This document shows positions 15,278 to 63,960 of a stretch of DNA of 64,000 nt, in pieces. The notes beneath the pieces are model-generated. The model did no database searches. It was given only the letters and a program-made list of their open reading frames with translations, and was not told where the DNA came from. Source of the DNA: Perkinsus olseni (taxonomy: Eukaryota > Perkinsozoa > Perkinsida > Perkinsidae); the NCBI GenBank assembly GCA_013115135.1, contig JABANP010000148.1, forward strand, positions 1 through 64,000, read 5' to 3'. Position numbers and translations under genes: made by a program. Positions within the stretch are counted from its first letter, which is position 1. Each line of letters opens with the position of its first letter.

Positions 15278-16163
15278 GTGGTCATCAGCGTCCCGAAAAG
15301 TGTAATTTCGGCCAAGTATTCGATACTCGTTATTCTGATGGAGATTGTGTATTGTTATGCGATATGTGTATACCTGAAGGGAAAACGTCGTCGCCGAGGA
15401 TCGAACCCGGGATCTATCACGTAGGTCCGCTTGGACGGATCGGCAGGCTGAGGGGCGTCTTGGCAATATCCGGTAGCCACCTGATGAAGATACTCCTAAA
15501 TCGATCACGTGATCGATTTGACCTGTATCATTAATCCAGCTTGTGGATCGACACGTTGGAAGTTACTCGCGTTTAATACAGATTGTTCGGATACGTATCT
15601 GACAGCCACCTGTGCATGCGTGCTAATCGAATCATATCGTAGTAACCCACTTGACGGTTTCAAAAAGAGTGTCTTCTTCTTCTCGAGGAGCCACAACAAC
15701 CTTGTTGTCATCCTCGCAGAGCAGCGGTCTGAAAGATGATAATCCAAAGGCCCCGGGTTCTATTCCCACGCATGACATACCGTAACAATCGATCTTTTAG
15801 GCGACCGATTGAAAGCCCCGAGACCCTCGCCGGGCGGCTGTCGGAATCACAACCACACGGGATCGACTTCGATACCAGCTGAAGGGAATCTTGAGGTCGA
15901 CCCAGGGCGTATCTTTGGACGTCGTGTTGTGCCAGCTTGAAAGATACTACATGGAATTTAAGAGCCTTTTCGGCTGTATACGCCAACTCGGATACTCGAA
16001 CAACGTTGGTAGTCATTGAATATCCTGAAAAAAGAATCTTGAGGTTGAGCGTGCAAGATACAAAATGGGTCAAGCCGTCGACCTCGCCCCCAGAAGTCGA
16101 TTTGACAGGGGTAGTTCGTCTGCAACAGTTGTCGGCCATCCATCAGATTGACGATCTTCCCAC
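15278..16163 (-). CDS. ApaG (DUF525) domain protein, partial model
   Basis: Seven exons join in frame: 16083-16163, 15951-16024, 15781-15878, 15647-15728, 15523-15609, 15421-15480 and 15278-15373. The protein ends in a clear ApaG core, TYVYTYRITIHNL ... YRILGRNYTFRDADDH, matching the family pattern YxYRIxIxN...LLxRxWxxxDAxG. This beta-sandwich fold occurs in bacterial ApaG, FBXO3 and PDIP2-type proteins. The upstream part (GKIVNLMDGRQLLQTNYPCQ, RPLLCEDDNKVVVAPREEED) is coding but not recognised. The six introns are 58, 72, 52, 37, 42 and 47 nt, and five belong to recurrent families: A, A, T antisense, B and T sense. The 5' exons probably lie beyond 16163 (an acidic segment near 16480-16530 is a candidate) and 3' exons below 15278. 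The fold call is solid; the cellular role is unknown. Confidence 0.7.
15374..15420 (-). repeat. Family T intron (tRNA T-arm, sense), 47 nt
   Basis: Whole intron GTGATAG...CCTTCAG between exons reading SKRTY and VYTYRIT. It contains CCCGGGTTCGATCCTCGG, a T-arm with the B-box GGTTCGATCC. Confidence 0.85.
15481..15522 (-). repeat. Family B intron (ATCGAT hairpin), 42 nt
   Basis: Intron GTC then AAATCGATCACGTGATCGATTT then AGGAGTATCTTCATCAG. The perfect palindrome makes up half the intron. The flanking exons read GLMIQ and VATGYCQ in frame. Confidence 0.85.
15729..15780 (-). repeat. Family T intron (tRNA T-arm, antisense), 52 nt
   Basis: Intron GTATGTC...CATCTTTCAG. It contains GGGAATAGAACCCGGGGCC, the reverse complement of a T-arm, followed by TTTGGATTATC. 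Confidence 0.8.
16025..16082 (-). repeat. Family A intron, 58 nt
   Basis: Intron GTCGACGGCTTGACCC...TTTTTTCAG. It carries GTATCTTGCACGCTCAACCT and CAAGATTC, the reverse complement of the family A core found sense-oriented at 17310-17362. Confidence 0.8.
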
Positions 16164-16169
16164 CTGAGA

Positions 16170-16410
16170 GTATCTTATCAACCTAGTTAGCCACGAAAAA
16201 AGTCGAGTAGAGGTTATAGAAGTATCTTATCGACCTAGTAATATACGAAATAGGTCGAATAGGAGAACAAGTAGTATCTTATCAGCTCAGTGAGATGCAA
16301 AAGTGGTCGAGACGAGTATCTTATCGCCCTAGGAAGATGTGAAATTCATCGGAATAACGCGATAGAAATATCTAATCGACCTAGTAAGATACAAAATAGG
16401 TCAACTAGAA
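16170..16410. repeat. Tandem array of five family A intron-like units
   Basis: Units start near 16170, 16222, 16274, 16316 and 16368, each about 42-52 bp, of the form GTATCTTATCGACCTAGTAAGATACRAAATAGGTCGA. Each resembles the core of single introns elsewhere. The array lies just upstream (in minus-strand sense) of the first resolved ApaG exon, probably within an intron or 5' leader, and about 550 bp upstream of the helicase start on the plus strand. Confidence 0.85.
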
Positions 16411-16953
16411 GCATTTTCTCCCAACTTACTCTTCCTCATTTGCCTCAGCAACATCACCGTCAACGACCTTCTTATCGACCGAGGACCCTTCGCCGTCAAC
16501 TCCGTCATAAAAGTTACTTAAACCATGCAACCTCTTTCACACCATCCATCCTGCGCCAAATCGATCATCGGGGCGCGCGCTTTTCTACCGCTGCGTCAGT
16601 CTGGCACGTAGACGCCGTTGGTGACCGTCCGGCGTTGCTTTTCATTTAATAAGCCCTTCAAGTGACCCCTCGGGGACTGGATGATTTCTAGTGTCCTTCT
16701 CGCATTGGAATCGGAGTATTTGTGGGGAAGGAGTGGTATGGGAATATTCTGTTGCTTTGGGAAGGCCGAGGGAATATTAACTGGGTGAGATTGAAAATAT
16801 CCGAGGTTGAAGCTTGCTCGATACGCTACATTAAGATACTTATAATAATTATTAGAGGAGAGGTTCCCTCTTCTGTCCTCTGTCCAATGTTCTCTATTTT
16901 ACCCTTTCTCCATCAATAATAGTTACTTCTTCTTTCCCTGTCTATTTCCCACC

Positions 16954-19984
<3,031 letters not shown>

Positions 19985-20421
19985 GTTATTCTATGATTGC
20001 CTCGGATCAACCTAAGATTCGCCGTCTCTTCTGCTCGGCCATCGATACTGTTTGTTTCTTCCCTCTCCCTCTACTGTAATTTACATCATCACCATCACGT
20101 CTATAAATTACCACTGGATCGTTGACGATTAGTTTCTCTCGCAAGTTGGCATAAGCGTATCTTAGGTCGAAGCTGGCATGCGGCAGAATTATACCGATTG
20201 TCATCACTACGTCAGAAATTATTCCTCTCACACTCAGCGCTGAACTTCCTCAGCGCCCGCAGCCGGAAGATTTTTCTCCACCCAAGGATACTCCAATTTT
20301 AGGGTGAGGAATATTTCCGCTGTATCTATACAATTGGTATTGAATGTTGTGTTGGGGGTATCCTAGGTTGAAGCTAGTAAGATACAAAATAGGTTAAGTT
20401 TGGGTTCTCCCATTTGTTGAT

Positions 20422-20908
20422 ATGAGTCGTCATATTCAAGGCGGGAAGGCTAAGCCGCTCAAGGCTCCCAAGTCGGGTAAGCACGATGATGCCGATACTA
20501 TCGCCATGAAGAAGCAGATGGTAGGTCCTTCTCATACCACATTTTTCGTAACTCTCGGTGATCTTGGATGATATCTCGTCATCACGACGTATCTCCTTCC
20601 TCAACATTCCCGTTATCACAGCGGTTCTCGTGGTTCTCTCCGTCGCTTTTCTTGGGAAGGAAAACTCGCGTCTTTCGTGTTCGTTTTGGTCATCTTACAG
20701 TAGTAATGATGATCCAGGTTTGGTCTTTGAATTTTTGTCGTCAAATTTTTCGAATGAAAAGAGGTCCTCCCCTGTGTTCGGGTTTCCTTCATTTTTTCGC
20801 GGAAATATTTCCTGTTGTGATCAATACTTTGTTTTTCAGAATGAAAAGAAGGCCGCCGAGAAGGCCGCCGCGAAGGCGTTGATGGCGAAGAAGAAGAGTA
20901 TCAAATAA
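20422..20908 (+). CDS. TMA7: Translation machinery-associated protein 7
   Basis: Two exons, 20422-20520 and 20840-20908, give 55 residues: GGKAKPLKAPKSGK near the start and KKAAEKAAAKALMAKKKS at the end. This matches the small, lysine-rich TMA7/CCDC72 family (usually about 64 residues), whose hallmark is GGKxKPLKxPK near the N-terminus followed by a charged helix. The yeast protein associates with ribosomes. The 319-nt intron starts GTAGGTCC and contains CATACCACATTTTTCGTAAC, also seen in helicase intron 4. A family A element (GGTATCCTAGGTTGAAGC ... AAGATACAAAATAGG) lies at 20355-20395 just upstream of the ATG, in the leader. Confidence 0.85.
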
Positions 20909-21021
20909 GAAGATTATTCACTCTCACTGACTGATAGCATTTCCAAAAATACATTTTTCGCGTCGGGTTGTCAATCGGGTTACCGTCACTGCGCCACGAA
21001 ATTGCTCTTCAGGGTTCATAT

Positions 21022-24000
21022 ATGTCATCATCGTCACCGGCAGAGTTCAAGGATTTTTATGAAGTTTTGGGGATTTGCCCTACGGCCACTGATGCTGAGA
21101 TAAAGACAGCGTAGTAATGGGAGGAGGGCGCTGAGGAAATTCAAGATTGCAAGATTTGGCGAGATGCTGGTATAGAAATACTTCGCAGTTGGAAGTTTGA
21201 GTTTCAATTACCATTGAACTATTGAGGGATGGTGAGAAAGTAGAAATTATCAACTCGCTGTTATGTTGTAGAAGGTATTCTTGCTTGGATGCGGCGGAAG
21301 GCGCTCATTCCAGTACGTCGTCTGGTGGCGGACTAGTAGAAGTGCTTTCGATTCGATTCGATAGAGAAGTACAAGATTCAATTTCCTATTGACATAATAC
21401 TTGAAGGAAGGGTAGAGAAAAGATAAAAGTTTGTCAAAATTTCGGGAATGTTGTAAATGTTTTTTGAGAAAATTCTCGTCTTGTAGAGGAAAGAAAGTTT
21501 TGCGAAGAGAGGGTATGGGAACCGAAGCGAGGTGAGAAGTACTCGAGAGGATGACGGCTGGGGGTTGAGAAAAATTCATTTTTCCCTCTCGATAATTCCC
21601 GTCTTGATTGTCGAAATAATTCCTCCCTTTTCTCTCCCGGGAAAATTTCCGAAAATTTTTTATACACTTCGCCACCCTGCTCGGAAAGGTAACGTCGAAT
21701 CTTGCGATCTGAATGAAGGCGGCAAAATGTGAATCGTTGGTTTGTGTAATTTTGAAATGACGACAATACGGCTTCGTTAGACTAGCGCATGGGGGATCAG
21801 TTAAGCCTGTCGGGCGGTGCAGTAACGTCCCAACAAGATCCGTATGGGAACGGTCGGCGGGGAAAAAGAATAGAAGATGATGGGTGTGCTCTACTCTAGC
21901 GATGCCTCCTCACTTTGGGGCAATGTTGATACCTGGACCGTGCCTGGAATGTTGCTCTCGGAGCGAGGTCATCGTCGAGGCAGATCGCTGGTTGTCCTGA
22001 GAGCAAAAGTACATGAAAATTTGCCGTATGAATGAGGAAATCTCACTTGAGGTGTATCATTATCGTATGAACAAAGCCTAGTGATAATAATATTTAAACG
22101 TAGTATTGTAAAAATAAATGAAGAACTGAAAGTTGTTGGGATCTCTTGCCAATGTGACGGTCAGTCACAGTCACTCTTTAGTGCATCGTTGTTATCCTGG
22201 TAACAGGCCTATACTGGAATGGCTTTCTTAAAGACAGTTAATTTCTAGGGTTGAGTACCACGACTGCGAGTTATCACTCGCGTGGGCTGCACTCGAGGTG
22301 TGTGTCTACTGCAGTCCCGGAATCCTGACCTCTAGAACTCAATGCCATGAGGGATTGGTAGAAATCTGAACTAGTAGCCATAAACTTGGTAGTACAGAGC
22401 TCAACGGGACTATAGCGTGGAGGCGCTAGAGGGACAGCTCCATAGCACCAGCTTTATGTGCTATGATACGGAATCTCCTGTACGGTGACAGCGCCTCACA
22501 TGTGTCTGGCAGTCTCAGCCACTGATGGTGCTTTCGTACCACTCCATGCGTCCGACAAGTAAATGTTGAGAATAGGTGAATATTTTTTATATTTAATAAA
22601 TCTAGATTTGTTACTATAAAATATTGAATCTTGAATATTGTGAGTTTGAAACTATTGATAGGCACCCGTATGTTCCAGTTCGTGAGGTTATCATAATAGC
22701 ACCATGGGAACTCTTTCTCCCTCTTTTTTGGGTTCGCCTCGAGATATCTTCGTCTGCTGGGTATTGGAGGATTCTAACTCGAGAATTGTGGGATTTACGG
22801 TATGGGAGGGCTCCCGGTTAGGTATCGAGAGACGATTAAATTATGGCATCCTGATAAGCATAAAGGGGACGGCAGAGAGGAGGCCTTGGGGAAGAGTCAG
22901 ATCATTAATGAAGCTTATGCGGTACTAAGGATAGGTCGCGGATTCGATCCTCGCCAGCGGCATTTTTCTGGAATATATCGCTGTCTGTGAGGTACTGAGG
23001 GATCCAGACAAACGGCAGAAGTTTGATATCGAGTTGTTGAAAAATCGGCGTACCCGCGCGGATGTAGAAAAGGGGGCCGGGAATTTCGTGGCGCAGTGAC
23101 GGTTGCTAGGCTGCCAAGGAGGAAGGAAATAAATGCTATCGGTCGTCGAAATTCGAAGAAGCGGTTCAACACTACAGTCGGGCGATTGATTTTGATAGCA
23201 CTAATCATGTATATTATAGGTGGGTGAGAATCGATCAACTGGGCGCGCGCTAAATTCATGAGGTTAGTAATCGGTCTACAGCGTATGCTGCACTGGCGAA
23301 GTGGGGTGAAAGTCGGGAGGATGCTGAGAAATGCGTAAGTGAGAGCAATATTACAAGATTTCTTATTTTGGGGTTGTTAGTTGGAGATCAATGAGCAGTC
23401 TGTGCGAGCGCATTATAATTTGGTGAGGGCGAAGATCAAAATGGGTCATTTGGGTGAGTTGGGCGGTTGTGAGTTGCGAAAAAATTTGGTATGGAGAACT
23501 TCTCCATACCTAATTTTTCCGAAAATTTTTCCGAAAATTTTACGAAAAATCTCGCCCTTTTCCAGGAGAAGGGCGAGATTTTTCGCTTTAAGTCGCTTTC
23601 TCTAGCGGAGCGAAGGTGGGGATATTTCGTTTCTCAGGAGACGCCCAGAAGACGCTGACGATAGCGCTCGGGAAGTTTCCGCGGGATTCGGATCTTATTA
23701 AACTGAGAACGGAGTTATTTACTTCCTCCTCGCGTCCGTCAACGCCGCCGTCAAAGTTGGTAGTACGGGATGGTGACGAAAATTATTTTCTTGGATCAGA
23801 TTTTTTTTCGTTCCTGCAGGATTTTTTTTCCAATGACATTCTTTAATGTTTTGTTAATTTTTTTCGCTTTTTTTCTGAAAATTTTCTGGTCTTTTTCGAA
23901 TTTTCCGATTTTTTCTGTCCTCAGCAGGCGAGTAGCAGATTGTCGAGTTTAACGCCACCTCGCAGCCGGTCGGTTGTGAGAGATTCGACACCAACCAGGG

Positions 24001-24311: not shown

Positions 24312-24397
24312 ATGGTGGATTTTTGTGTCGGGGAGATCTGTGGATGACCTGGGAGGCGCGTCGAATATCCTCACTGGCGTTTGTCTTCCTGGGTATA

Positions 24398-24512
24398 CTC
24401 TTGAGCCACGTCGACATACTGGGTAACGCTGTTGAGGAAATGCAAGATTCGGCAAGATTCCTAGATTCTCAACATACCACCTACTTGTGACTAGCCCTCA
24501 AGGCACCTTGTC
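24398..24512 (-). pseudogene. Fragment of the DEAD-box helicase gene, intron included
   Basis: The reverse complement aligns with 19031-19145, from the end of helicase exon 8 (CTTGAGGGCTWGTCACAAGT) through the family E intron into exon 9 (CAGCGTTACCCAGTATGT). It reads VTQYVDVAQEY in the exon 9 frame, then diverges. The intron is present, so it was copied as DNA and not from spliced mRNA. It lies just beyond the stop of the J-domain gene, on the other strand. Confidence 0.85.
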
Positions 24513-27763: not shown

Positions 27764-27789
27764 GTTCTGAGAGGTACCTAGTTTGGACC

Positions 27790-28560: not shown

Positions 28561-28618
28561 GCATGGCTGCTACGATAAGAAGATTCCGTGCTCTCCAGCT
28601 CGGTCAGACTTCAATCAA

Positions 28619-29126: not shown

Positions 29127-29129
29127 TAG

Positions 29130-30120: not shown

Positions 30121-30123
30121 CAA

Positions 30124-36247: not shown

Positions 36248-36329
36248 CTCTAACGAGCGAGGGGGAGGGTAGAATATGAACCTACACTGGTTCTTCGCCT
36301 CAGAAATAGTAACGCTACTGTTTATCAAT

Positions 36330-41391: not shown

Positions 41392-44300
41392 TTAACGCAA
41401 GAAAGGTATAGAGTAGACACCCGGAGCTCCGGTGACACAAGACAACACATTCTCTCTCGTGCACTTCAGTGCTTCCGCCAAAGGCCTTTCATCAAATCCT
41501 CGAAGCAGCTTCGAAGTTCCGCAAAGCTCCCAGGCTGCTGCGTCTCCGAGATGCCCTGCTAGCCTGAACGAGACAGAGGTCGTGGGTACCTCCTGAGCAA
41601 AGATCAGCTTACCGTTGCCAGTCATTCAAGGACCGACTAAGTCTACGCGGCGATCGATCGTGCCCCATCATCCTTCCATTCAGAAGAGCGCTTCGTTGTA
41701 CTTCGCTCCAGTCTAGGCTGACTCTGTCTGTCACAAATTCTACTAAGCGTTTAGCATGCTCGCTGTACCGCGCTGAAAGTGCGGCTGGGTCGATCGAACG
41801 CTGACAGCCGGTCGCGGAAGGTGTGCTGCTCGAGTTGGCCCAAGCGTAAAGCGCACGGCGAGTGATCATCCTCTGCCGAGCTGTTTTGATACGGTCTGCT
41901 AGCTGTGATAATCGAGAAGACCCTCGAGCCAGGCTCTTCCATAATCTGAGGAAACGCATATGCCGAGAATGTCGAACAGAGGAGGACTATTCCCACCTGA
42001 GAAGGCAACGGAGAGACCGCTGGTTCCTCTGCCCGGAGGATAGGTCCTTCCACCAGTTGAATGCACTGAGTAGTTTGCTCCACTTTAGGATGAGCTCCTG
42101 ACGATAGAGGGCTTTGCGTAGCCATCGGAGCAGCTCGACCATACCACTCTTCCCCCAACTCTAGTCACCCTGGTGGCTCTATACCATCGTTCGAAATGTC
42201 TCATACGCTGCTTCTGTCGAACCTCGTAGGCGTGTTGCAAACACCTGCAGACCGATGTAGAGTCATCACTGATCATGCAAGAGTCCGCCAACCTGCGCCG
42301 CTCCCGATAGAAATCCGACCAGATAGTCAAACATCGACCACCCAGTCGGCTGGCCCTTATCGCTTCCCAAGCACGGGACAACGCCACCGCTCGGGTCAAT
42401 TGCAGCCAGCAGGATAACGCCTTTCGGGCGGGTTTTAGATATGTTCTGCTGCGCAGAGTATCCCTCGAGACCTTCTGCTTGGCGACGTATCCAGCCCAAG
42501 CCGCTGCGACTTCCGCCAGTCTCTTATCAGTGAACCTTACACGAGAAAAACGATGAGCTCCTTCACCGCCCATCCCAGGCAGGCCATCAATCGCTCCAGC
42601 CCGCCTCACCTAGCCGTGATCGCAGTCTCCACCTCCCTCCACAATTCTCTGATGTTCTCTAAACTACGCCTCCACCGACGCCAGGCCGTCGCAAGAAGAC
42701 GACCGTCGAGGGAATCGCCGCTACCAGCCCTGCAGAGCCTTCCCTGAGGAGACCGCAATTCGAAGTCGCATGTATGCCGATCGGTGGACCTTTTCCGCTA
42801 CGGCCTTTTTGTATTCGACAACCGATGACCATCCTCGAGTGACCGACCGTCGCAGGCGAGCCCAATAAAATCCCCTCAGCATCTGAGCTGCACGGCGACG
42901 AGCGACTTGTCGTTTGTACCAACGCCGCCAAGCTCGGAGGCAGTCGAACGTAGCGCGGCGAGGCCGGGTAGAGTTCCACCGTTCAACAGCCTGGTGCTTC
43001 CGCCAAGCTCTGAAAGGCCCGTCATGGGATTCGAACCGGGGTCAATGCATCTACAGGAAGGCCCTATCTCGAGCACACGAAGCTCTTCGTCCGGCAAGCT
43101 TGGCCAGAAGTATGACAGACCTCCATCTCCTGAGCGCCTTAGCCTGGACACCGGCGTCAATGAGGCTGTGCAGGGAGTCCACTGAACAGGATGAGGGGCT
43201 GGGCATGTAACGTCTTACTGCCCACAGCGTGGGTCATGCGTCGTCGACGAAAGTTAGAGAACTCATCGTCACTTCCGCCGATTTTCCCCCACCCGCCCCA
43301 AGGTTTTTACGTAGGTACGTGAAGAGTCCTCACTAAGGACCTTACGTCAGGTTTCCTACTAGATAGGTCTCTGCGGTGGTGCAAAATGCGGTGTTGAACA
43401 CTGCAGCAGTGCCGCCTACCCTTCCGAGCGAAGGCCATCGTCTTCCTCAGTTTTCTCCAGTCCGCGAAGATGCTCTCAACAGCAGCCCTCCGCCTCGGGA
43501 TAACCAAACTTACACCAGCAGCTACGACCGACTGGGACCATCCCATCCAGCGTGTGAAGAGTTGTTGTAACATCATTCGGTTGTATAACTGCTGGGCGGC
43601 AGCCGAGCGCCGGCGCTGAGAGATGAGGTCGACCCAAGCACTGAAGTGTGCTGCTGTATCTTTCTTAGCGGAATACCGTCCGTTGCGGAGGAAGATAACC
43701 TGAGGCACTCCGGCCATCAGAATTGAATTGAGCATCAGAGGCCTACTAATTCTCGTGAATTTCGCGTCTCTTTCCGGCGAGCAGTAAAGGTCCGCCAGCG
43801 TTGTAGGTTTGTTTCGAGGTGGGCATCATCGTGGTTCGTGCTGTAATCGCTGAGGTCCGGTATGACGATACGCATGAGCTTCCATCTGACACCACGCTGA
43901 TGCTCCTAGGGAAGACTGGACCGACCTGGCCTGTCTGCGTCGGGTCGCCAGTCCTCGCCAAGACGCGATCCTTCTGTTCATCACCCTCCGGAACAGCATT
44001 CCTGCCTGCGTTCGCCGAGTTGCTACTCGCGTCGCACTCTCGGCCCAGGTGCTCAGACATCCCCATGACAGGTGTGCTCGGTGATGTTGACGAGCCTTCC
44101 AAACCATCACGATGCTGGCTAGACAGATGACTTTGTAATGTCGTTTTCTCGAGGCTGCAGCGCGGGAGAAGGACTGCCTCAAAAGTCGTCGCCGGGCCGT
44201 TATTGTCGACAGCAACCGAAAGAATACTCGAAGGCGGAGAGATGGATCGGCCCAGATGAGCGATGGGATGAACGACACCTGGGAAGGGAGGGGAAGAATT

Positions 44301-47824: not shown

Positions 47825-47829
47825 ATTGA

Positions 47830-49840: not shown

Positions 49841-49852
49841 GTGATCCCGCGT

Positions 49853-52800: not shown

Positions 52801-54310
52801 ATGAAAACGGAAGGGCCGTTGGTCAAGACATTTGATCAAGGTCGACTACTCGCCGATGCAAGTACTAACATGAAGATTGAACATGCCAGACGCGGCTGAA
52901 GCATCACAAGAGCTGCAGTCCCCCCAACAGGCGGGCCACGAGCCTAGGGCGACGACGGAATCGAACCTACGACCTTTCAAATGCCAGCTCACCCGCTGCC
53001 CCGTTGCTCTGCGTCGATGTTGTCTTGCTGATCGTCCAACTCGTCCTCACCGAAAACACTCACTCGCCTCTGCAGCGGCTTCCGAGATTCCCATTCGATC
53101 TCCAAGCACTCAGGGGCCATATAGGACAACGTGCCTCCCTGAAGAGGGTAATCCAATCACCCGGGTTCGATTCCTGGGAGAGGCGTTACTCCTAATGATT
53201 TGCTGGAACCGATCCGTCGCGCCAATCCGAAGTCGAAAAGCTTCAGACGACGGTCGGGACAATCATACACATGCCGTGGATCTGAAAGCCAGAAGAAATT
53301 GTAAGTGAATCGAGATAGAGATCGAGACCCCGGTTCGATCCCCGGTAGCGTCAATTTTCTATTCATCAAGACTTCCCTCACCTGTAATGACCGGACAGCC
53401 GCAAGTGAACATGAAGTGACTTGGTTTGATATCTCGATGGACCTGATAAAATGCCATCCGTTAGAATCGAACCCGATACCTTTCGATTACTATATTGGAC
53501 GTGTGAAGGTAATTAATCGCGTAGAGAACCTGAGCGATGATATCAGCAACTTCCGGCTCCGCAAAATAGCCACCAGAATTAAACCTGAGACAAAAATTAA
53601 GCAAAAAAACTCCCACTGGGATTCGAACCGCCGACCTCTGATAAATCATCTCATGCAGATCAGGGCCCCGGCAAAGCTCCATAACCAGATGCACCTGCGA
53701 ACCGAAAGGTCCCCGGTTCGATCCCAGGGAAGCTCACCATAGTCGGTGCTTCAAATACGTAGGCCAATCGGCAGATATTAGGATGGTCGACCGATAAGAA
53801 AATCTCAACCTCATTTAATAAATTCTTCTCTTGCCAAGCCGTCAAGTCCCTCTTCGATAACGACTTCAACGCGAATCTGATCCTCACACAAAAATGAGCA
53901 ACAAAAAAGGTCGTCGAGAAAGTCAAGTTCCTCCCGGAAGAATAATCTTCATTGGGGAGTCGAAGATTCAATCTTCCATACACGAGAAGTCAGATCTGCA
54001 AATCTTCAAGATTCGACGGGCGGAGCGACGCGAAAAAATGCGAGGACTCGATCGTTATTCGGCAGGTCGAGTATCTTACTCTTCTCCAGTTCGTTTGTGT
54101 ATAACTCTTCTTACCGTCGCTGTAGCCCCGTGACCCAACACCTGCATCGCCACAGAAAAAATGGTCTAATCGTTATGATCCACGTTTATCGTTCAAGCGG
54201 TCCCGGGATCGATCCCTCCGCCCTACATCTTGCGTAACCACAAATACTTGTGATAAAGGGCAAGTCATTAACCTCGATAATGAAGAGCTCGCCAAGCGCT
54301 CAACCCTCCT
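49853..54310 (-). CDS. Calcium-dependent protein kinase (CDPK)
   Basis: Minus-strand, many exons. The kinase domain reads, in order: VLGHGATATVRRVIHKRTGE (glycine loop), RFALKSLSKRD (ATP-binding Lys), NEVEIFLSVDHPNICRL, VHLVMELCRGPDLHEM, NYLHTSNI / VHRDIKPSHFMF (catalytic loop), KLFDFGLARRI (DFG), GTLSYMAPE, CDIWGVGVICHLLLTGKMPF. Then comes the junction helix DVLESMRRYAVANSLRKAAL and EF-hands: KIDVDHDGVIQFSELL, a degenerate second hand (DDEDDFEVEYSQFLAAA), RFDIDGNGTISEDEL and KFDKDGNGVIDYEEFL, with the stop at 49853. Calcium binding to the EF-hands releases the kinase from the junction helix. Odd point: the catalytic loop has KPSHF where kinases have KPxNF. At least six introns in the kinase part contain tRNA T-arms. 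The N-terminal exon is uncertain; an ATG at 54716 (SLSIGDDDETN) is a candidate. Confidence 0.85.
52913..52992 (-). repeat. Family T intron (tRNA T-arm, sense), 80 nt
   Basis: GTGAGCTGGCATTTGAAAGG, TCGTAGGTTCGATTCCGTCG ... CTGCAG, in the CDPK between subdomains VIII and IX. The following exon phase is not settled. Confidence 0.65.
53139..53189 (-). repeat. Family T intron (tRNA T-arm, antisense), 51 nt
   Basis: GTAACGCCTCTCCCAGGAAT, CGAACCCGGGTGATTGGATT, ACCCTCTTCAG. Flanking exons read SSKSLG and GGTLSYMAPE in frame. Confidence 0.85.
53282..53381 (-). repeat. Family T intron (tRNA T-arm, antisense), 100 nt
   Basis: Contains CTACCGGGGATCGAACCGGG. Flanking CDPK exons read CGCPVIT and DPRHVYDCPDRRLKLFDFG in frame. 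Confidence 0.8.
53443..53490 (-). repeat. Family T intron (tRNA T-arm, sense), 48 nt
   Basis: GTAATCGAAAGGTATCGGGT, TCGATTCTAACGGATGGCAT, TTTATCAG. It interrupts the kinase catalytic loop between HTSNI and VHRDIKP. Confidence 0.85.
53585..53635 (-). repeat. Family T intron (tRNA T-arm, sense), 51 nt
   Basis: GTCGGCGGTTCGAATCCCAG then a T-rich tract and CTCAG. Exons read EMIYQR and FNSGGYFAEPEVAD in frame. Confidence 0.85.
53695..53737 (-). repeat. Family T intron (tRNA T-arm, antisense), 43 nt
   Basis: GTGAGCTTCCCTGGGATCGA, ACCGGGGACCTTTCGGTTCG, CAG. Almost the whole intron is tRNA 3'-half. Exons read VFEAPTM and VHLVMELC in frame. Confidence 0.9.
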
Positions 54311-54777: not shown

Positions 54778-56701
54778 TCAGCCATCGCAACCCACATGGA
54801 AGCGACACCAATTTTTACCGCGAATAAACGATTCATCGAATTTTTTCACAAGAGTATCTTTTCTACTTGAGTACTGCCAGAGTCGAGCTAAGATACCCCT
54901 GCCAACCTTCTTCTCATCTGATTGTCGCCTCTCAGCTCTTCCGCGTCCAACGTAGCTCGCCTTATCATCAAGAAAATTTACCAGCTCCCCGAGGTCCTCG
55001 AAAATAAAAATCGATCAACTGATCGATTTTATCGATCAAGGATAAGGAAACTGGAACGCCTGCAGCAGGTCGTTCGAGATGACTAGCGCTCTGAATACCT
55101 TAACATGAAGGTCCCCGGTTCGATCCCCGGCAGCTCCATTTAATAAATAAACTCAATACAACTCTCACTGAGTGAAAATATGCAGATTTTTTCGCTTCGC
55201 TCCGCTCATTAACTGACCGGTATGAGTTGAAGGTCATCGGGAAGAGGCGGATCGCTTTCGAAGATTCCCTGCCGAATCACCTGACAGCAGGCCGTTGAGG
55301 AAACGCAAGTGAGAGCAAGATTGCAAGATCACCTTCTGTAAATTAGGGTTCTCGATCGCGGCTTGACATCGTTCTTTGTCGTTCAGTTGCTTGTTAACCT
55401 GCTCTTCCTGATCGTGCGTCCCTAAAAGTTCACTCGTAACCGAAAGGTCCCCGGTTCGATCCCCGGCAGAGACACTTTAAAAACACTAAATTATGGAAAT
55501 TCCCAATATTTTTCAAGAAAAAAAATCAGCAAAAATTTCGACAGCGTGAGTTCGGCCAAGATATGCTAAACATCAACTCCTCCCTGCAAGCCCACATTAT
55601 ACTTTAATTTGAATACAAGAAATCCGCAAAAAATCGAAATGACAATTTCCTTCGCGGAGCGCACGAGACGATCTTCTTATCTCTTCACCAAAATTCCCTC
55701 AGAAAAGGGCGAACAACAGCTTCCCCAAAGATTTGCGATAGGAGTTGGTATATGATAATTTCGTGGCGCGCGAAATATTCCCAACAGTACCTTCCTTAAT
55801 ATTAACATTAATCTTAATATCTCCGTTAGCCCCGCAAACGCACTTTTGCAGCTTCGTGCGGATGGTCAAACCAATCAGAGTGGCAACGGAACATGTGGGT
55901 ATCTAAATCGATCATCTGATCGATTGGCCGCTAGACATAATAATAATGTTACCGTTGGCGTGAATTCTACATCAATTTTGGTGATGCCATCAATTCCCTT
56001 GCTAACACGTATCTGCCAAAATGCTCATCAAACAAAAAAATATTAATACCAAACTTTCCACGACAACCCCCGAAATATTTCGAGAAAGGTGCCGGGAAGT
56101 TAATAATGAATATCAAAAAATTAATAATTATGAGGAAAAAAATTTATAAAGGACAGATCTTACAAAAAAACTGACTGAACGGTTCAGAAAAGTTGGTATG
56201 GGTTTAGCTCAGTTCCATACCAATTTTTTTCCGAAATTTCGATGAGCATGCACCAGCGCCATGAAGATACACTTGGCAAATTCACGACATACGATTAACA
56301 GAATTCCCTACTTGACGAAACAGAAATTCAACGGAAAAATTTTCTGCAATTTTTCATTCGACCCGGCGTTTTGACCTCATACCACAATTTACGCAATTTT
56401 CCCTCCGTGTAAAATCTTGATTAACCCAATTACTCCACCAAGAATTTTTAACGTAAATTCACGAGAAAATTTTCAGGAAAAATTGTAAAATTCCCAAGGC
56501 GTATACGACCCCAGCTAGTCCGAAATGACGACAAGGTTAAATGGAATGACAAAAAATATTTTTACGATTTTCTATTTTTCCAAAAATTCTGCAAAAAAGT
56601 TTTTTTTCCGATATGACCTGTTCGGCCGTAACAACTCTCAGTTGCTCCAATGACAGGGTCGGATGCTCGGGATCTCGAAGACCGCGGATAATTTCAAATA
56701 C
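54778..56701 (-). CDS. CIAO2: Cytosolic Fe-S assembly protein, CIAO2/MIP18 family
   Basis: Exons join in frame: 56618-56701 ([20 protein letters not shown]), 55953-56012 ([20 protein letters not shown]), 55791-55902 ([20 protein letters not shown]), 55333-55421 ([20 protein letters not shown] ... [10 protein letters not shown]), 55218-55280, 55052-55090, and 54907-54996 read through to a TGA at 54778. The motifs DPExPxTLEEL, FTPTxPxCSxATLIGLxIR, [28 protein letters not shown] are diagnostic of MIP18/FAM96, which delivers Fe-S clusters to nuclear and cytosolic apoproteins with CIAO1 and MMS19. The catalytic-type Cys in PTCSVATL is present. A C-terminal extension ([19 protein letters not shown]...) goes beyond the usual family length and is less certain. 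N-terminal exons lie above 56701. Introns include families B (55052 side, 55903-55952), E (55281-55332), F, G and T. Confidence 0.85.
55281..55332 (-). repeat. Family E intron, 52 nt
   Basis: GTGATCTTGCAATCTTGCTC, TCACTTGCGTTTCCTCAACG ... TGTCAG, between IENPNLQK and VIRQGIFES of CIAO2. Nearly the same core as helicase intron 19055-19110. Confidence 0.85.
55903..55952 (-). repeat. Family B intron, 50 nt
   Basis: GTAACATTATTATTATGTCT then AGCGGCC, CAATCGATCAGATGATCGAT and TTAG, between EFTPT and IPTCSVATL of CIAO2. Confidence 0.85.
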
Positions 56702-57990: not shown

Positions 57991-57999
57991 CCTTCACCA

Positions 58000-59914
58000 C
58001 CAAGAGCGTATCTTATTCAGTTGTCTAAATGTTGTATCTAATTAACGAGCATGCATCTTAGAGGTCAACCTGAGGTCGGGCGTATCTTTTGCAGTGCGAA
58101 AGATATTCTTCGCTGTGCGTTGTTGTTGTTGCAGATACCGATACCGTCTTGGGGGCCTTATTGTTGTTACGTGGGGTATCACTGGAGGGCTGAGCTTCTG
58201 CTTGAGGTGAGTGAGGATGATTTGGGGAAGGAGCGGTACGGGATGTATTTTCATTTTACACTGGAAAAAGGAATCTTAGGTTGACCACGGAAGATACGCA
58301 CAATGTCGGTTAAAAACAGCCTATTGATTACAGATTACGTCATAGCTTGCTAAGTATATATTATTAATTACATCCTCCAGTCATTGGCCTTCGTAACGGA
58401 AGAGCGGAAAAACTTGACACTGTCAAAATAAAAAGTTACTGTCAAGTTGACATTAACTTTTTATTCTTTCCCCTCTATTTTTCGGCTGCGTCCGCCTCAG
58501 TTTTGGTTGGCAGAAGCGATTTCGTATTTTCTCGAATATAAAGATACTTTCATTTGAGTAACCCCCTCGCCGAAATACAGTAAATAGGGCCCGAAGCCCT
58601 CGGAAGTCGTAGTAGGCCTTACACGAGTTAACATCTGAGTAATGAGCTCTAGCTACGTAGGATACAACAAAAATTGGAAAAAATTTGTCGATAAATTTGC
58701 GAAAATTGTCGCGCTTCGAATCTGAGGACGTTACTGTGCTGTATAGAGTAAATCTCAGTGATATTTTCGGCTGATTTATCTTTTTTGGGAAGTTTTATTT
58801 TTTATTTTTTGTTTCTTTCAGTTACTGTTTGATGTGGTACAACAACAAACGTCGAAGGGGTCGTGGTGGGATTCATAAAAGGGCGAGAGAGTATCTTAGG
58901 TCGATCAGGGGAAGATCCGTTGCAGGTCGAGGTATCGATTGAAGGGTAGTAGGTTGAGCTTGCTCTTGGCAGGTGCGAAAGATACGTCTCCGAAGCTTCC
59001 TGCGTTGCAGCACGACCCGTACGGTCGATTCATGGAAGTGAGGAATCTTTTTTGTTGTGTCGAGCATGCTTAACCTGAAGATACGCTCGAAGTTTGTGGT
59101 AGGTTGCAGCCGAGACAAAAGCTCATCATGGCAAGAAAGATCCTACTGGGAATCTTGAGGTTGAGCGAGTAAGATACGAATCAGGTTGACCTGGCACCCG
59201 CGTTCGGAAGCGGATCGCAGTGGACTTTTCTTTTAGGTTGACTCGGGCAAGCATCATCATCACCGGAAGGGCAAAGTATGCTCGCTTGTGTTGCATGGCG
59301 ATCGGTTTATGACTGGATCTCTCAGGACTGATGGATGCTGGTAATCGAAAGGTCCCGGGTTCGATTCCTGGTCACCGAACTGAATTTGTGGAATCGTGTT
59401 GTCTCACGTTGTTGCTGTGTTGTTGTTGGTCATAATATTATTGCGTACGAGTCGTCAATTAATTAGGAGGGGTATCTTAGGTTGACCCGTGCACTACATG
59501 CAGATTTAGGATATGTCAACTTATGGTGACGATTCGGCACACGTCACATTCGTCGCTGACGAATCTTAGGTCGATGCGTGCGCTCCATAGAATTCCACTG
59601 TGAATGTATGTAGTAGAAGAGTATCTTAGGTCGATGCATGCATCTCGCAAGTACAGCTGGATAATGTTGATAGTGAGTTATCTGTGAAGATACTCTTGAT
59701 GGCAAATCCGCAATTGTTATGGTTATTATCGTCTTGTAGGAAGCCTCGGGTTGGTTGGTATTATGTGATGATTATTCTCAAATCGATCAACCGTTTCATA
59801 TCACTATTTCCCATGACCGTCCCTGCCCTGCGTGAAGCTGACCGCCCGACGACGGCGATGACTTTGGCGGTTGAAAAAGCGAAGGAAGCTCGCCAGAAGG
59901 ACTGGCAGAAGTAG
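58000..59914 (+). CDS. Intron-rich gene(s) of unknown function, not resolved
   Basis: Coding-like exons lie between family A elements: IPIPSWGPYCCYVGYHWRAE (about 58128-58210), YCLMWYNNKRRRGRGGIHKR (58820-58880), AKDTSPKLPALQHDPYGRFM (58975-59038), VAAETKAHHGKKDPTG (59106-59150), SGKHHHHRKGKVCSLVLHGD (59240-59310) and a last exon ending AMTLAVEKAKEARQKDWQK at 59914. They are separated by GT-AG segments such as GTGAGGAATC...GTGGTAG (59039-59105). I could not join all of them in one frame, and no domain is recognised. A T-arm element (GGTCCCGGGTTCGATTCCTG) at about 59351 lies after the DGCW codons. Confidence 0.4.
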
Positions 59915-60280
59915 TGAAAGGTGTGGTATGATAATTTATTCATGTTTAAAGTGTTGTTCCCCTATTCCCAACATTTACGGACAGGCGCGAAAATGAATAC
60001 CAGTCGGGAGGAGTACTTTCTTCGCCCGTCTTCACGCGTCTGTGGCATAATTTTATTAGAAAAGTTAATGTTATGCAGTCCTGTCCAGAGAGAATTCGGA
60101 AAGGTTATCTGCCGAGTAATTACAAGCGGATCGCATCACTATATAGCAAATTCGCTGCTTTTTCGAAAGACATGGTGAAACTGGAAATACTCACCGAAGT
60201 CGGCGAGAAATTCACGATAAGAAATTTTTTTCCGGGGCAATTGTAATTTTTTGCCTTTGATCTTATAGATTGACGTGACT

Positions 60281-60475
60281 ACGTCGAGTTTGCGGGTAAC
60301 TCAAGTGCTTCCGAACTCGCAAGGGCTCTCCAATGGTCCGAATGGCTTTGCATAATTCCGACGCGTCCAGAGTTCGTTGCCAACATTACTGTAGACCCTG
60401 AGCGAACGGCGATGAGAAGTGCTGCCTCCGGCCAGGGAAAATTCGTCTTGAACAAATTTTTAAAGATGGGGAAAA
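60281..60475 (+). CDS. Possible exon of unknown gene
   Basis: Open frame reading DYVEFAGNSSASELARALQW, SEWLCIIPTRPEFVANITVD and AASGQGKFVLNKFLKM after a T-rich acceptor-like tract. The composition is convincingly coding, but the acceptor phase was not settled. It may belong to the gene that follows. Confidence 0.4.
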
Positions 60476-60629
60476 TATGATTCACGAAAATTTTTTTTGG
60501 GGTGGATAGCCGAGAAAAAGGTATTCTCCGAGAGCTCAAGTGTTTGATACGTATCATTGAGTCAGTACAAGTGTATTTCAGTGGGGGGTTTGGTTTATTG
60601 GGATTTCCGAAGGGCGAGTTGCGGTATTA

Positions 60630-61517
60630 GGTTGTATAAAAGGGAACTGCGCCGACGAGAGAAGGAGAGGAGGATGCAGGTCATGCAGCAGGAGTATCTC
60701 TTCAGGCAGAGAGATGATCGCTATGGGTCAGTCCTGAGTTATTCCGTATCTTCCTCGCTTCAACCTTGGATATGCAGGATGGGCCCTTGTGGGGAGTTTC
60801 ACATCCCACCTATTATGTTTGGATCGAGCGGAGGGAGCAGCAACACTACAACTGCGACGCCGGCGGCCCGCGGACCTTCGAACACTCCCGGAAGGCCGGC
60901 CAAAGTGGCCGGTGGAAGCAGCAGCAAGAAATTTGGTGAAGTGGGGACGCCCATGCAGAAGCAGGAAGGTGAGTAGGGAGAGGTCGCAGGTTCGAACCCC
61001 AGCGGCGGTATTTTTTGTCAGAAGGCGCCCAGGCGGTTCTTCATATAACGCCGCAGATGGATCCTTCCTCTGTGGCTGCGGCTCATCTGCAAGCCCTCAT
61101 AGAGAGCGAGAATAAGAGTGATAAATATGCCGCGGGTGGGAATCGAACCTGGGTCGTCTGTATGACAGGACGGCAGAAGGTCGACGAGGCCCAACTCGAG
61201 TGGGACAAGAGATGCCTAGCTGCTTGGGACCATGAAGTGGACAGAAGGAAGTGGGTTGTGTTAATTTATCAAATCGATCACGTGATCGATTCTGTCAGGC
61301 AGTGGGATATATCGCATCAACTTCAACAAGCGGAGAGATCTCGAAGGGTCGAGGCGGAAGAGAGGCGGAGAAAGTGGGCATTCGGAATCCTCCACTTCTG
61401 GGAGTATCTTTCTTTTCTTCCGGGTGCGCAGGGAGTTCAACTGTTACGTCCAGCATAGACTGGAGATAGAGGATATTCATCTTGCTGCGGTGCCGCCCGA
61501 TCATCCGATGGCAAATA
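60630..61517 (+). CDS. Charged, coiled-coil-like protein of unknown function, partial
   Basis: Exons: ...YKRELRRREKERRMQVMQQE ... RDDRYG to about 60725; about 60779-60968 (MGPCGEFHIPPIMFGSSGGS ... GTPMQKQE); 61022-61135 (GAQAVLHITPQMDPSSVAAA ... SDKYAA); 61169 onward (RQKVDEAQLEWDKRCLAAWD); then QWDISHQLQQAERSRRVEAE; last resolved exon EFNCYVQHRLEIEDIHLAAV ... HPMAN to 61517. Strongly charged helices at both ends flank a Ser/Thr/Gly-rich linker. No known domain. Introns: family A inverted, T sense (60969-61021), T antisense 33 nt (61136-61168) and B (AAATCGATCACGTGATCGAT near 61274). The gene continues beyond 61518. Confidence 0.55.
60969..61021 (+). repeat. Family T intron (tRNA T-arm, sense), 53 nt
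   Basis: GTGAGTAGGGAGAGGTCGCA, GGTTCGAACCCCAGCGGCGG, T-rich tract, GTCAG. Exons read TPMQKQE and EGAQAVLHITPQ in frame. Confidence 0.85.
61136..61168 (+). repeat. Family T intron (tRNA T-arm, antisense), 33 nt
   Basis: GTGGGAATCGAACCTGGGTC then GTCTGTATGACAG. This is a whole intron of 33 nt. Exons read SDKYAA and GRQKVDEAQLEWD in frame; read unspliced, the frame also stays open but changes composition. Confidence 0.65.
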
Positions 61518-61653
61518 GTAAGTTGTGATGGCGCCCGCCCAGCTGATCGATTTGCAACTATCATTTGGTGGAAAACGGTGAATCTTTTACTGTAGTTGTG
61601 CTTAATTTGGCAAATATCATTTTTGTGCTCCACGAGAAGCGCGGTAGAGAAAA

Positions 61654-61724
61654 GGTTCTACCGGGATTTGAACCCAGATCGCCAGATTCAGAGTCTGGAG
61701 TGCTAACCGTTACACCATAGAACC
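61654..61724 (-). tRNA. tRNA-Gln (CTG)
   Basis: A complete 71-nt cloverleaf: acceptor GGTTCTA/TAGAACC (7 perfect pairs), D arm GTGT/GCAC, anticodon stem CCAGA/TCTGG with loop CTCTGAA (anticodon CTG, reading CAG), and T arm CTGGG-TTCAAAT-CCCGG. TTTT follows immediately downstream on the minus strand, a Pol III terminator. It is antisense to and probably inside a long intron of the flanking plus-strand gene. It is the only intact tRNA gene in the window and contrasts with the fragmentary T-arm introns. Confidence 0.93.
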
Positions 61725-61729
61725 GATGA

Positions 61730-62635
61730 AAGATCGGGTCGGGCTCGGTGGCCTATCGCTTGTTTTGCATGTAGCTCCTGCCATGCCTGAAGACCCCGCC
61801 CTAGAAAAGCAAGGGGGCAACCCGCCGAAAGTGCCCCTCGGCTCCGACTGATCATCACCAAATTCATCGCGTAAGATTGGAAGTGGTACCACTCGCCATT
61901 CGCCACTCCCGAGAATTTGACTTTCATCTGGGCATTCCGCGGCCGTGAGGGAGGACCATCTTGTGAGGGCTGACGGCTCAGTAGAGAACGTTAATCAAAA
62001 TCAAGTCCGAGAGTAACGTTTTTGGATTTGCTCTGGATACCGAATTAAGTTCTGGTAAATGCTTATTCCATGATATCATCATTACGCCCATGCTGTTGGT
62101 ATTATTATAACTTAGTACAATGGAATTAATACTGCTACTATTAGGCTTACACTCTAAAAGTGCTTAGAGTGATAGACAATACTCGATACCAATAGTAGTT
62201 ATACGGAATTGAAGCGTGCAGCGTTCGTCAGGTTTCGTTTTTTTTGCTGCGTCCGACCTGATAAGGTGCGAATCAATACCCAACCCTCGGCGGTACTGGA
62301 GCTGCAGGGAGTTTGGTTTTTCCTCAGGTTTTATGCAAGCTGGCGGAAGTCAGTGATTCATCATCATCAGCAGCTGTGGCTGCTATTCATATTGGGTTTT
62401 TATATTCGACCTTTTATGGACCATTCTCCTCGGTGGCGTATCTTTTCGTCTGTCGTCATGCGCAGCCGGAAGATTCGCAGGGCATGTGACGAAGAACTTG
62501 TGTTGCGTTTTGGGAGGGACGACGTTCTTGCCTAGCATAGGATAGTGAATCTTAGGTCGAAGCTTGCTGGATATGAGTGAGGTACTGATCCACTCCAAAC
62601 AGCAACGGAGTTCACTGAGAAAATTCATCAGCTGC
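61730..62635. other. No gene resolved; probable intron or intergenic
   Basis: Contains a family A core at 62545-62575 (GTGAATCTTAGGTCGAAGCT) and short frames on both strands without motifs. AGTGC-type hairpins lie around 62150-62170. Confidence 0.5.
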
Positions 62636-62648
62636 TGCGTTGCACAGG

Positions 62649-63960
62649 ATGTTCTCTCTATTTCGACGCTTGAGCGGCCTGCTCCACCGCCCCTCGTCTT
62701 CGTCTGATGCCACTCCGGGAGGGAATAGCGAGAGGAGCTCCTCGAGGAAGAGGAGAATTGACGATACAGAAGAGTCTGTGTACTCGGAAGAAAAGGTCCT
62801 GCTGGGATTCGAACCGGGGACCTCTCGCATGGCAGTCTGCTATAGGTTCCGACACACTGTGTGCGAACTTTGCGAAAGAGGACACTCCCGTCGGCGGCCC
62901 TCGGATACGGTCGGCCAGTGGGTGGTGACACGACGGGTGTGCGGAGGAGCTGGCCTTCGTCTATCACCGTCAAAGGTCGGATGGATTGCGGAAATTTCCG
63001 GAAAAATCGGGAAAAAACCGAAAAATTCGGCGACTGTATCGACAGATACACCGAGCGCTGATCTATCATCGCCGATAACAACAACGCAGGTCGATGCAGT
63101 GGATGCAAAATGCAGGAGCTTTTCGAAACACCCTCAAGTAGGGTAGGTCCCGGGTTCGAATCCCACGGACAGCGTTTTATCAGATATTGTCAACTTTATC
63201 TATTATAAGAAATTCAATCGTACCAACACTCAATGAACTCTTGGCCGAGAACAAGGAGTCCCTGGACAGCGGGGTGGGTCGGTTTTCGGTGCGTGGCCTG
63301 AGGGGCTTCATTCTTTTTCCCACTCTGGTTATTGATTGTTAGAAGGGATTTGTAACGCTTTGTGGCAGCTGATAGATCGCTCTCCCACCGGTTTTCCGTG
63401 ATGCAGATTTCAGGGTGGCGGGGATCTCGAAAGCATGCCGGCTGTCGCGAATTTCCTTGGTCCTCTTGGAGAGAGTTCTGCCCGAAATTTGGTATGGAAA
63501 TTCACAAAAACAGTAGAATTTTTGAAGCGGCTCTCCGCACTCGTTGCCGATGAAGATTATCTTGGCAGAACGTAGAGTGATGAGCCAAAGATAGGCGCAG
63601 AAATCGCTCCTTCGTTTCGCCGCTGCTGGGAGCTGATCGTGCGGCTCATCCAAGCGGCGAGGGTTCCACCCGAGGAAAGACATATCTTGTGTGGTGGTGT
63701 CAGGTTAGTGGGGGTCTGCGGGAGTCGATGCGGAAGAAGGAGCTGTTCTTGAATGATGTCACTTGCAAGGAGCAGGTTAGGTTGGACTGCATTGAACTGG
63801 ATGAGCTCAAGTAATGGGGGCCCTGGGAATAGATCCGGAGGCCTCTTGCATGTTAAGACAGCATTGTAACCATCTGAACTATATCAGGCCGGAGTACGGC
63901 AGCCGTCAAGAAGTGAGGGCGGCGAGGAAGCTGTTGATCGATTGGCTGGCCGAAGTGAGC
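62649..63960 (+). CDS. Intron-rich gene of unknown function, continues past window
   Basis: Start at 62649 (FSLFRRLSGLLHRPSSSSDA). Exons in frame: 62649-62795; 62846-62975 (VPTHCVRTLRKRTLPSAALG); 63100-63137 (VDAKCRSFSKHPQ); 63184 onward (ILSTLSIIRNSIVPTLNELL, AENKESLDSGVGRFSVRG); further segments CWELIVRLIQAARVPPEERH (about 63627-63690), LRESMRKKELFLNDVTCKEQ and DCIELDELK to 63810; 63888-63950 (PEYGSRQEVRAARKLLIDWL). Mixed helical protein with a Ser/Arg-rich N-terminus; no family is recognised. Three introns are tRNA-derived. Some middle junctions (63300-63620) are unresolved. Confidence 0.55.
62796..62845 (+). repeat. Family T intron (tRNA T-arm, antisense), 50 nt
   Basis: GTCCTGCTGGGATTCGAACC, GGGGACCTCTCGCATGGCAG, TCTGCTATAG. 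Exons read ESVYSEEK and VPTHCVRT in frame. Confidence 0.8.
63138..63183 (+). repeat. Family T intron (tRNA T-arm, sense), 46 nt
   Basis: GTAGGGTAGGTCCCGGGTTC, GAATCCCACGGACAGCGTTT, TATCAG. Exons read FSKHPQ and ILSTLSIIRNS in frame. Confidence 0.85.
63811..63887 (+). repeat. Family T intron (near-complete tRNA, antisense), 77 nt
   Basis: Reverse complement: TATAGTTCAGATGGTTAC (D arm/A box), an anticodon-arm-like TGCTGTCTTAACATGCA, then CCGGATCTATTCCCAGGG (T arm with degraded B box). It is a tRNA-length pseudogene filling a whole intron. Exons read ELDELK and PEYGSRQEV in frame. Confidence 0.85.

Follow-up and report, generated by a model that had tools for sequence, protein, structure and literature searches.

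The window analysed here comprises the first 64 kb (64,000 nucleotides) of contig JABANP010000148.1 (C55) in an assembly of Perkinsus olseni (phylum Perkinsozoa), of a genus parasitic in clams and oysters, which was searched over its 61.48 Mb and 968 contigs. Among the genes at this locus are those for a protein kinase, a MIP18-family protein, a DDX17-like DEAD-box helicase and a DnaJ-domain protein. Their coding sequences are interrupted by GT-AG introns that contain the T-arm of a tRNA, including its B box, in either orientation (Table 1). Introns occur in 69.2% of 104 Perkinsus genes and are mostly shorter than 100 bp, according to PMC3101222. A gene finder, for which T-arm regions had been kept out of the training of the splice and non-coding models, was run on the window and on C1:1-200000 (264 kb in all). 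It predicted 397 GT-AG introns, with a commonest length of 40-59 nt, and missed the kinase gene of 52944-53737. The product of the window kinase gene is 98% identical to a deposited P. olseni protein. An initial annotation of this DNA had listed 19 T-arm introns. A T-arm was recovered at 18 of the 19 sites, either by pattern or by a hidden Markov model (HMM) of the tRNA 3′ half, and by neither at 63811.

Removal of the T-arm segments restores conserved proteins. Twelve of the resulting junctions, from seven genes (kinase, DEAD-box, DnaJ, kinesin, eIF4E, SNF2 and SMC), are enclosed by domain matches. Five junctions of the kinase gene, on the minus strand, fall within a single Pkinase match (2.1e-34), and both T-arm junctions of the DEAD-box helicase fall in ungapped parts of the alignment with DDX17 (4.2e-63). 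The kinesin match, at the junction GQT/GSGKTYTM (a slash marks a junction here and in Table 1), reaches 1.7e-20 when spliced versus 1e-11 when read through. The eIF4E gene has two T-arm introns, the second of which is spanned by the IF4E match (2.6e-23), and the SNF2 (2e-9) and SMC (5.5e-14) matches hold one T-arm junction apiece. Junctions in HATPase_c and TPP_enzyme_C were not counted because the matches lay under the curated cut-offs. In two Pfam scans, 1/4 and 4/8 protein pieces were without any match. The length of the T-arm intron is not divisible by three in 25 of 34 cases.

Three further junctions (kinase intron 6, MIP18 and the first of eIF4E) rest on deposited P. olseni proteins. Nine T-arm introns are removed identically in these proteins and in this analysis. 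Along 205 residues, the protein P0001 differs by a single substitution from the kinase sequence obtained on removal of the six introns, and around the MIP18 junction the agreement extends to at least 60 residues. P0026 agrees with the removal of both eIF4E T-arm introns over 99 residues, and its sole difference from the eIF4E query is at the third intron, which is not a T-arm intron. On combined sequence and protein evidence, introns made of tRNA 3′ ends are real, and the GT-AG borders together with the exon continuity of conserved proteins fit a U2-type spliceosomal intron. P0001 appears to be a fusion of the MIP18-family gene and the downstream neighbouring kinase gene, probably through an annotation error.

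Regions of the window were also compared with their homologous copies on contigs C274, C141 and C541, which are 91-96% identical to them. A minus-strand stretch of 61 bp at 53013-53073, flanked by GCAGAG repeats, is present in C55 and C274 and missing from C541; it is treated as coding in the deposited model P0001.

With regard to the listed sites as introns, the initial annotation is upheld by protein evidence at ten: the six kinase introns, MIP18, DEAD-box 19506 and 19681, and DnaJ 22922. The other nine (15374, 15729, 43010, 60969, 61136, 62796, 63138, 63811 and 55091) are candidate introns. The gene finder agrees at 43010 and 60969 and disagrees at 61136, which it places in an exon.

Table 1. 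T-arm introns and tRNA 3′ ends along the window, with the orientation of the tRNA part (sense or antisense) and the supporting observations; copies are those on homologous contigs.
Feature	Position	Strand	Observations
Kinase T-arm intron 1	53695..53737	-	antisense tRNA; APTM/VHLVMELC; Pkinase 2.1e-34 on spliced protein; absent from P0001; 3/3 copies
Kinase T-arm intron 2	53585..53635	-	sense; donor is variable-loop AG/GTC; Pkinase, P0001, copies
Kinase T-arm intron 3	53443..53490	-	sense; NI/VHRDIKP; begins GTAATCGAAAGGT; Pkinase, P0001, copies
Kinase T-arm intron 4	53282..53381	-	antisense; CPVIT/DPRHV; Pkinase, P0001, copies
Kinase T-arm intron 5	53139..53189	-	antisense; SKSLG/GGTLSYMAPE; Pkinase, P0001, copies
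Kinase T-arm intron 6	52944..52992	-	sense; RGSG/LVARLL; removed in P0001; 3/3 copies
MIP18-family gene intron	55422..55790	-	antisense T-arm at 55453-55463; P0001 joins exons, at least 60 residues exact
DDX17-like DEAD-box helicase intron	19506..19570	+	sense; HRIG/RTGRAG; ab initio model; Helicase_C 2.9e-34; DDX17 4.2e-63, ungapped there
Second T-arm intron, DDX17-like DEAD-box helicase	19681..19779	+	antisense; DDX17 alignment
DnaJ-domain intron	22922..22991	+	sense; NEAYA/VLRDPDKR; DnaJ 1.5e-11 on spliced protein
Probable T-arm intron	15374..15420	-	sense; T-arm pattern
Probable T-arm intron	15729..15780	-	antisense; T-arm pattern
Predicted T-arm intron	43010..43054	-	sense; gene finder
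Predicted T-arm intron	60969..61021	+	sense; gene finder; top 3′-half HMM match
Possible T-arm intron	61118..61168	+	antisense; 3′-half HMM; exon according to gene finder
tRNA 3′ end with T run	62789..62822	-	3′-half HMM
Possible T-arm intron	63138..63183	+	sense; 3′-half HMM
tRNA 3′ end with T run; lies between exons of the MIP18 and kinase genes	55110..55143	+	3′-half HMM
tRNA 3′ end, GTAATCGAAAGGTC lead, absent from the initial annotation	59351..59372	+	3′-half HMM
tRNA 3′ end, absent from the initial annotation	14197..14224	+	3′-half HMM

The B-box motif GGTTCGANTCC occurs 24 times in the window with at most one mismatch, versus 5.1 expected, and none of 100 shuffles reaches 24. One of these matches is a real tRNA-Gln and some are chance matches; an Rfam scan gave nothing above cut-off except this tRNA-Gln. 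Genome-wide there are 1,835 exact occurrences (944+891) versus 155 (73+82) for the reversed pattern. A non-random sample of 60 stretches near the head of the genome list (not every one was taken) holds 62 exact sites, of which 7 are in tRNAs found by ARAGORN and 55 outside; 43 were scored as tRNA 3′ ends and 12 were not. Among the 43, L094 is a near-duplicate locus, and L099 is possibly an intron-containing tRNA. Simple proportion from this non-random sample suggests that the genome holds roughly a thousand or more exact-B-box fragments.

The motif, with at most one mismatch, is contained in 17 of the 397 predicted introns versus 5 in the reversed control. T-arm elements are enriched in predicted introns: with real tRNAs removed, 9 of 26 T-arm HMM matches (E<1; 264 kb) lie in predicted introns, which make up 12% of bases (p=0.003). 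Inside predicted genes the figure is 9 of 11, with introns at 28% of bases (p=0.0003). The remaining matches are two in predicted exons and 15 outside predicted genes. As the 15 include the missed kinase introns, the enrichment figures are conservative. An all-against-all comparison of predicted introns, blind to tRNAs, also returned AGGTCCCGGGTTCGAT among the strongest repeats. Other short repeats recur in the predicted introns of C1 and the window, namely GAGTATCTT (6), TACCACTCC (6), GCGGAGCGA (6) and CGCGCCACG (5). One of these repeats is located in the third eIF4E intron. These may represent further intron-forming families.

Two sets of elements describe the anatomy of the fragment. The set of 34 T-arm introns consists of 22 obtained with a local intron model from 43 kept sites (at most 90 nt) and 12 placed by hand. 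The set of 67 fragments consists of 81 B-box-aligned sites outside ARAGORN tRNAs, minus 14 later dropped as un-tRNA-like. Relative to the B box, the information in the 81 sites starts at position -8, in the variable loop (AGGTC), and continues to +26. It is weak from -15 (the anticodon loop) and about zero beyond -15 to +26. The T-stem is followed on its 3′ side by seven acceptor-strand positions, mostly variable with a preferred final C, then by the discriminator (A in 58%) and by T-rich sequence. At +22 to +26 the T content is 63% in sense elements (n=25), 60% in antisense (n=15) and 61% in unassigned ones (n=26), versus 22-32% elsewhere. Since the antisense and unassigned elements are equally rich in T, the T-rich end is not merely a selected pyrimidine tract. 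It is read as a putative RNA polymerase III terminator.

The fragments begin at the anticodon or variable loop and lie in both orientations relative to the gene. In the 25 sense introns, the donor is 3-50 nt ahead of the B box and the acceptor 24-45 nt past the B-box start. The initial annotation had the flanks supplying both GT and AG. This holds in part, as some donors are inside the tRNA part itself, in the variable loop (AG/GTC) or the anticodon loop (GTAATCGAAAGGTC). Its description of the tRNA 3′ half as an intron body, in both orientations and in unrelated genes, is supported by this anatomy and by the protein junctions.

The median length is 53 nt for the 34 T-arm introns versus 50 nt for 373 ordinary introns, the former figure being partly shaped by the 90-nt limit on 22 of the 34. 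The tRNA piece alone takes about 35-45 nt, and within an older intron of normal size the total would be about 90. It appears from the ordinary length that the fragment is the intron itself, not an insert into an older intron. That pieces of tRNA pseudogenes were put into pre-existing introns is thus very improbable, despite the length of some T-arm introns (369 nt in MIP18, 100 nt in kinase intron 4).

On the 264 kb, the 3′-half tRNA HMM gives 29 matches at E<1, including three real tRNAs, versus one on reversed DNA. The 5′-half HMM gives four, namely the three real tRNAs and one weak match, and likewise one on reversed DNA. Thus, 3′ ends are scattered over this DNA and 5′ halves are not, and a 5′ region with the A and B boxes of a short interspersed nuclear element (SINE) was not found with the 5′-half HMM. 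With the core masked, and apart from neighbouring loci, a single duplicated locus and a larger tRNA-like family, only eight matches of 16-23 nt are left. The statement of the initial annotation that the introns differ in sequence outside the arm is therefore broadly right. The core-masked comparison revealed no tRNA-unrelated body common to the copies. Nor is there the end-to-end similarity with defined borders that introners display, only about -8 to +26 being common to copies. The larger family, L107:80-300 with L062, counts 21 tRNA-like matches including itself, the others at 68-83% identity, and its similarity extends around the T-arm; a SINE or a decayed tRNA gene family is possible.

These data bear on the suggestion that a tRNA-derived transposable family, an introner or SINE with its own ends, has left decayed copies of several subfamilies. 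The high copy number, both orientations, the T-rich end, the kept B box and a recurrent left part, AGGTCCCGG, are consistent with such a family, as is the occurrence of 25-26 identical nucleotides containing GTAATCGAAAGGTCCCGGGTTCGAT at three loci. An unpaired T-stem is common in SINEs. Against it stand the A box or 5′ half that was not found, the lack of a consistent duplication, the highly variable acceptor strand and the mere eight short matches between unrelated elements outside the tRNA part, and we regard it as unlikely. The single mobile SINE-like family invoked by the initial annotation is not borne out, as neither a 5′ half or A box, nor a common body, nor a consistent target-site duplication was found. 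Both tRNA-derived SINEs and tailless tRNA retropseudogenes resemble the present fragments in their RNA polymerase III source, T run or tail and 5′ truncation. They differ in that no A-box half, body or consistent duplication was found here and the fragment is about the whole intron.

The features of these elements probably, though by no means certainly, reflect spliceosomal-type GT-AG introns that originated as the 3′ ends of transcripts of the tRNA type (RNA polymerase III), which would have been inserted into exons and spliced. The observations behind this are the anatomy, the restored frames and domains, the 3′ ends without 5′ halves, the T-rich end, the intron-size fragments and their age; an RNA intermediate, its reverse transcription and splicing in the cell are what we infer. 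The sharp 3′ border and ragged 5′ border point to the copying of a transcript from its 3′ end, and it is likely that RNA was copied to give the fragments. The source piece would begin in the anticodon loop or the variable loop of a tRNA-type transcript, take in the T-arm and the acceptor strand, and end with the U run of the terminator. The copying to DNA would most simply proceed by reverse transcription from the 3′ end that stops early, giving 5′-truncated and perhaps mosaic copies. Such copies would have been inserted in exons, in either orientation, some time ago, and retained where piece and target between them offered GT as a donor and AG as an acceptor. For sense insertions, the donor could be a GT of the anticodon loop, of the variable loop or of their vicinity, with the T-rich terminator ahead of the acceptor; antisense insertions would use other GT/AG pairs.

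Several observations weigh against this origin. Of the 201 cases given by the three free T-stem pairs of the 67 fragments, 106 are paired, versus 102 (standard deviation 5) when the strands are shuffled. The ten nucleotides of the right stem and acceptor never equal, in any of the 67, the 15 sampled tRNA sequences of ten types. With T-stem strands unpaired, the templates were not simply working tRNAs. TTT is found near the terminator in just 14/25 sense, 5/15 antisense and 12/26 other elements. The deposited protein models used above may be computational. The flank pattern AGGT...CAGG occurs 43 times genome-wide in the sense orientation (reversed 6) versus 26 with scrambled flanks (reversed 2), and 23 times in the antisense one (reversed 3). 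The sense sets are few and partly tandem tRNA-Ser, which makes the genome-wide flank test weak. An empty site was not found for 12 elements among the homologous contig copies. The T-arm introns lack a consistent target-site duplication; terminal inverted repeats were not searched for.

The T-stem mismatch was unforeseen by the initial annotation and speaks against direct copies of working tRNAs. In the 27 distinct real tRNAs of the genome the same pairs are formed in 81/81, and the complete cloverleaf with paired T-stem of a tRNA gene is absent from the 67 fragments, which pair at chance level. With 35 extra sequences from the flank-pattern searches, pairing is 165/306. The nearest match of a fragment right half to a real tRNA has one mismatch and most have 4-5, among the ten tRNA types sampled. 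Within each strand there is linkage between positions (left z 2.9, right z 3.6; maximum of the flank control 2.1 in 27 blocks). There is none between the left and right T-stem strands (z -1.3, 66 fragments), nor between the right stem and the acceptor at a distance of at least three (z -0.4). A stronger linkage within halves was first apparent and shrank under controls for neighbour effects. As cross-strand pairing is lost while the strand consensus is strong, simple decay is a poor fit. The pattern is tentatively taken to mean that the halves were reassorted at the T-loop, whether through recombination or through template switching.

A mosaic origin has been considered in which two tRNA-like RNAs are joined at the T-loop during reverse transcription and the product is spliced in an exon. 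This proposal is tentative and is held at well below even. Reverse transcription would start on a tRNA precursor, at its 3′ end with the U tail, and halt in the T-loop, where m1A58 is a familiar reverse-transcription stop. It would then jump to the T-loop of a second tRNA-like RNA and end a few bases on. The product would land in an exon, with the tRNA's own terminator preceding the acceptor. Such a course would account for the presence of 3′ ends, for the variable acceptors and T-rich end, and for T-stem strands that are coherent yet mutually unlinked.

No sign of recent insertion was found among the elements compared. Twelve were compared (the six kinase ones, another five from 14.8-23.4 kb and an SNF2 one, the last at 97% in two copies), and 12/12 occur in every homologous copy, at 91-97% identity. 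The T-arm elements thus predate the split of the homologous contigs compared. P0003, a read-through protein from another contig (source lgn), seems to carry an antisense T-arm at each of the two sites corresponding to kinase introns 4 and 5, as judged from amino acids only. The view of the initial annotation that introns are being generated now is not supported, given the 12 shared elements and these two, seemingly present in a more distant relative. For the eIF4E locus the search for a second copy matched only the locus itself, and for the window at 60-64 kb no long second copy was among the scored candidates. The intron at 19506 is longer by 18 nt, between AGGT repeats, in C55 than in C274 and C141 (L112, L115). 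This difference is most simply a deletion in C274 and C141 and looks like slippage trimming the 5′ side.

Conservation of the B box as a functional signal, such as a TFIIIC or splicing-factor site, is scarcely credible. The core is kept while the stems vary, and P0003 seems to retain the B box at two positions, which is in its favour. Among the homologous copies, 4/120 B-box columns vary, versus 26/379 in the near flanks and 193/2914 elsewhere. This is not clearly different from the pooled 219/3293, so that no clear constraint is seen, and the columns had been chosen by the motif itself. The presence of the motif in only 17 of 397 predicted introns, with 5 in the reversed control, also speaks against such a function.

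A further proposal is that tRNA 3′ ends were captured as filler DNA during the repair of staggered breaks, some becoming introns, with no dedicated element involved. The inconsistent duplication length and both orientations agree with this, as do repeats at single sites (AGGT, GGTG, GGAG and GGTACTGAGG). The last is a 10-bp direct repeat flanking the DnaJ intron 22922 in copies C274 and C141, a single case. Over 35 introns, the four-base duplication seen as GGTG, AGGT and GGAG at single introns was no better than with permuted acceptors. A register-0 repeat of at least 4 nt is present in 7/35 T-arm introns (20%; the row for 60969 was mis-parsed and c1_71833 was not found), versus a permuted mean of 14% with a 95th percentile of 20%, and in 16% of 241 ordinary introns. 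Repeats of at least 7 nt flank 5/71 elements versus 5.3 when permuted. Capture of random DNA would leave the uniform 3′ end at the terminator and the near absence of 5′ halves unaccounted for, and it is judged quite improbable. If the filler were complementary DNA, it would merge with the copying of transcript 3′ ends.

Two side observations concern other repeats. A repeat of about 75 bp at 14800-14875 of the window has 23 more matches across contigs, with identities of 81-93%. On C778, C823, C21 and C401, tRNA genes form tandem arrays, comprising Ile and Arg genes (ARAGORN, on fetched members) and Gln-like and Ser-like ones (by similarity only).

The origin of new spliceosomal introns is an old question, and the bulk source described so far is transposons. 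In the introners of Gozashti et al. 2022 (PMC9860276), repeated sequences make whole introns in many unrelated genes, mostly in aquatic organisms. The same is true here, where one sequence forms introns in many unrelated genes. The introners of that paper come as families whose introns resemble one another, and some of them have target duplications and inverted repeats; the present copies share only the tRNA 3′ part. The words tRNA, SINE and Perkinsus each have 0 occurrences in the main text of that paper. The introner elements of Amoebophrya, an early dinoflagellate relative, are also intron-borne repeats (Farhat et al. 2021, PMC7789003). Their inverted repeats measure 8-20 nt and their direct repeats 3-5 nt, and their splice sites are non-canonical, unlike the present introns. 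That text mentions tRNA twice, one passage being about synthetases. Dinoflagellate introners are also the subject of Roy et al. 2023, as cited in PMC11782384. The Dada transposons of Perkinsus marinus (Kojima and Jurka 2013, PMC3706591) likewise tie mobile DNA to tRNA genes in Perkinsus. Dada produces duplications of 6-7 bp; for three families of P. marinus the duplicated sequence is TAGCTC, within the A box. This footprint is absent here, as the fragments start downstream of the A box. No report of tRNA-fragment introns was found in the open PMC literature, judged by titles and abstract openings (subscription papers and preprints lay outside its scope). This agrees with the statement of the initial annotation that no introner family of this kind had been described.

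The tRNA-3′-end introns would thus represent insertion-driven intron gain in a form for which no description was found. If this is true, cellular RNA would be a new source of ready-made introns, with tRNA loops giving the donor GTs and a T-rich terminator placed before the acceptor. The T-stem mismatch is a specific clue to the copying step. Should the mosaic model hold, tRNAs would be a standing source of introns, with perhaps a thousand or more fragments in the genome.

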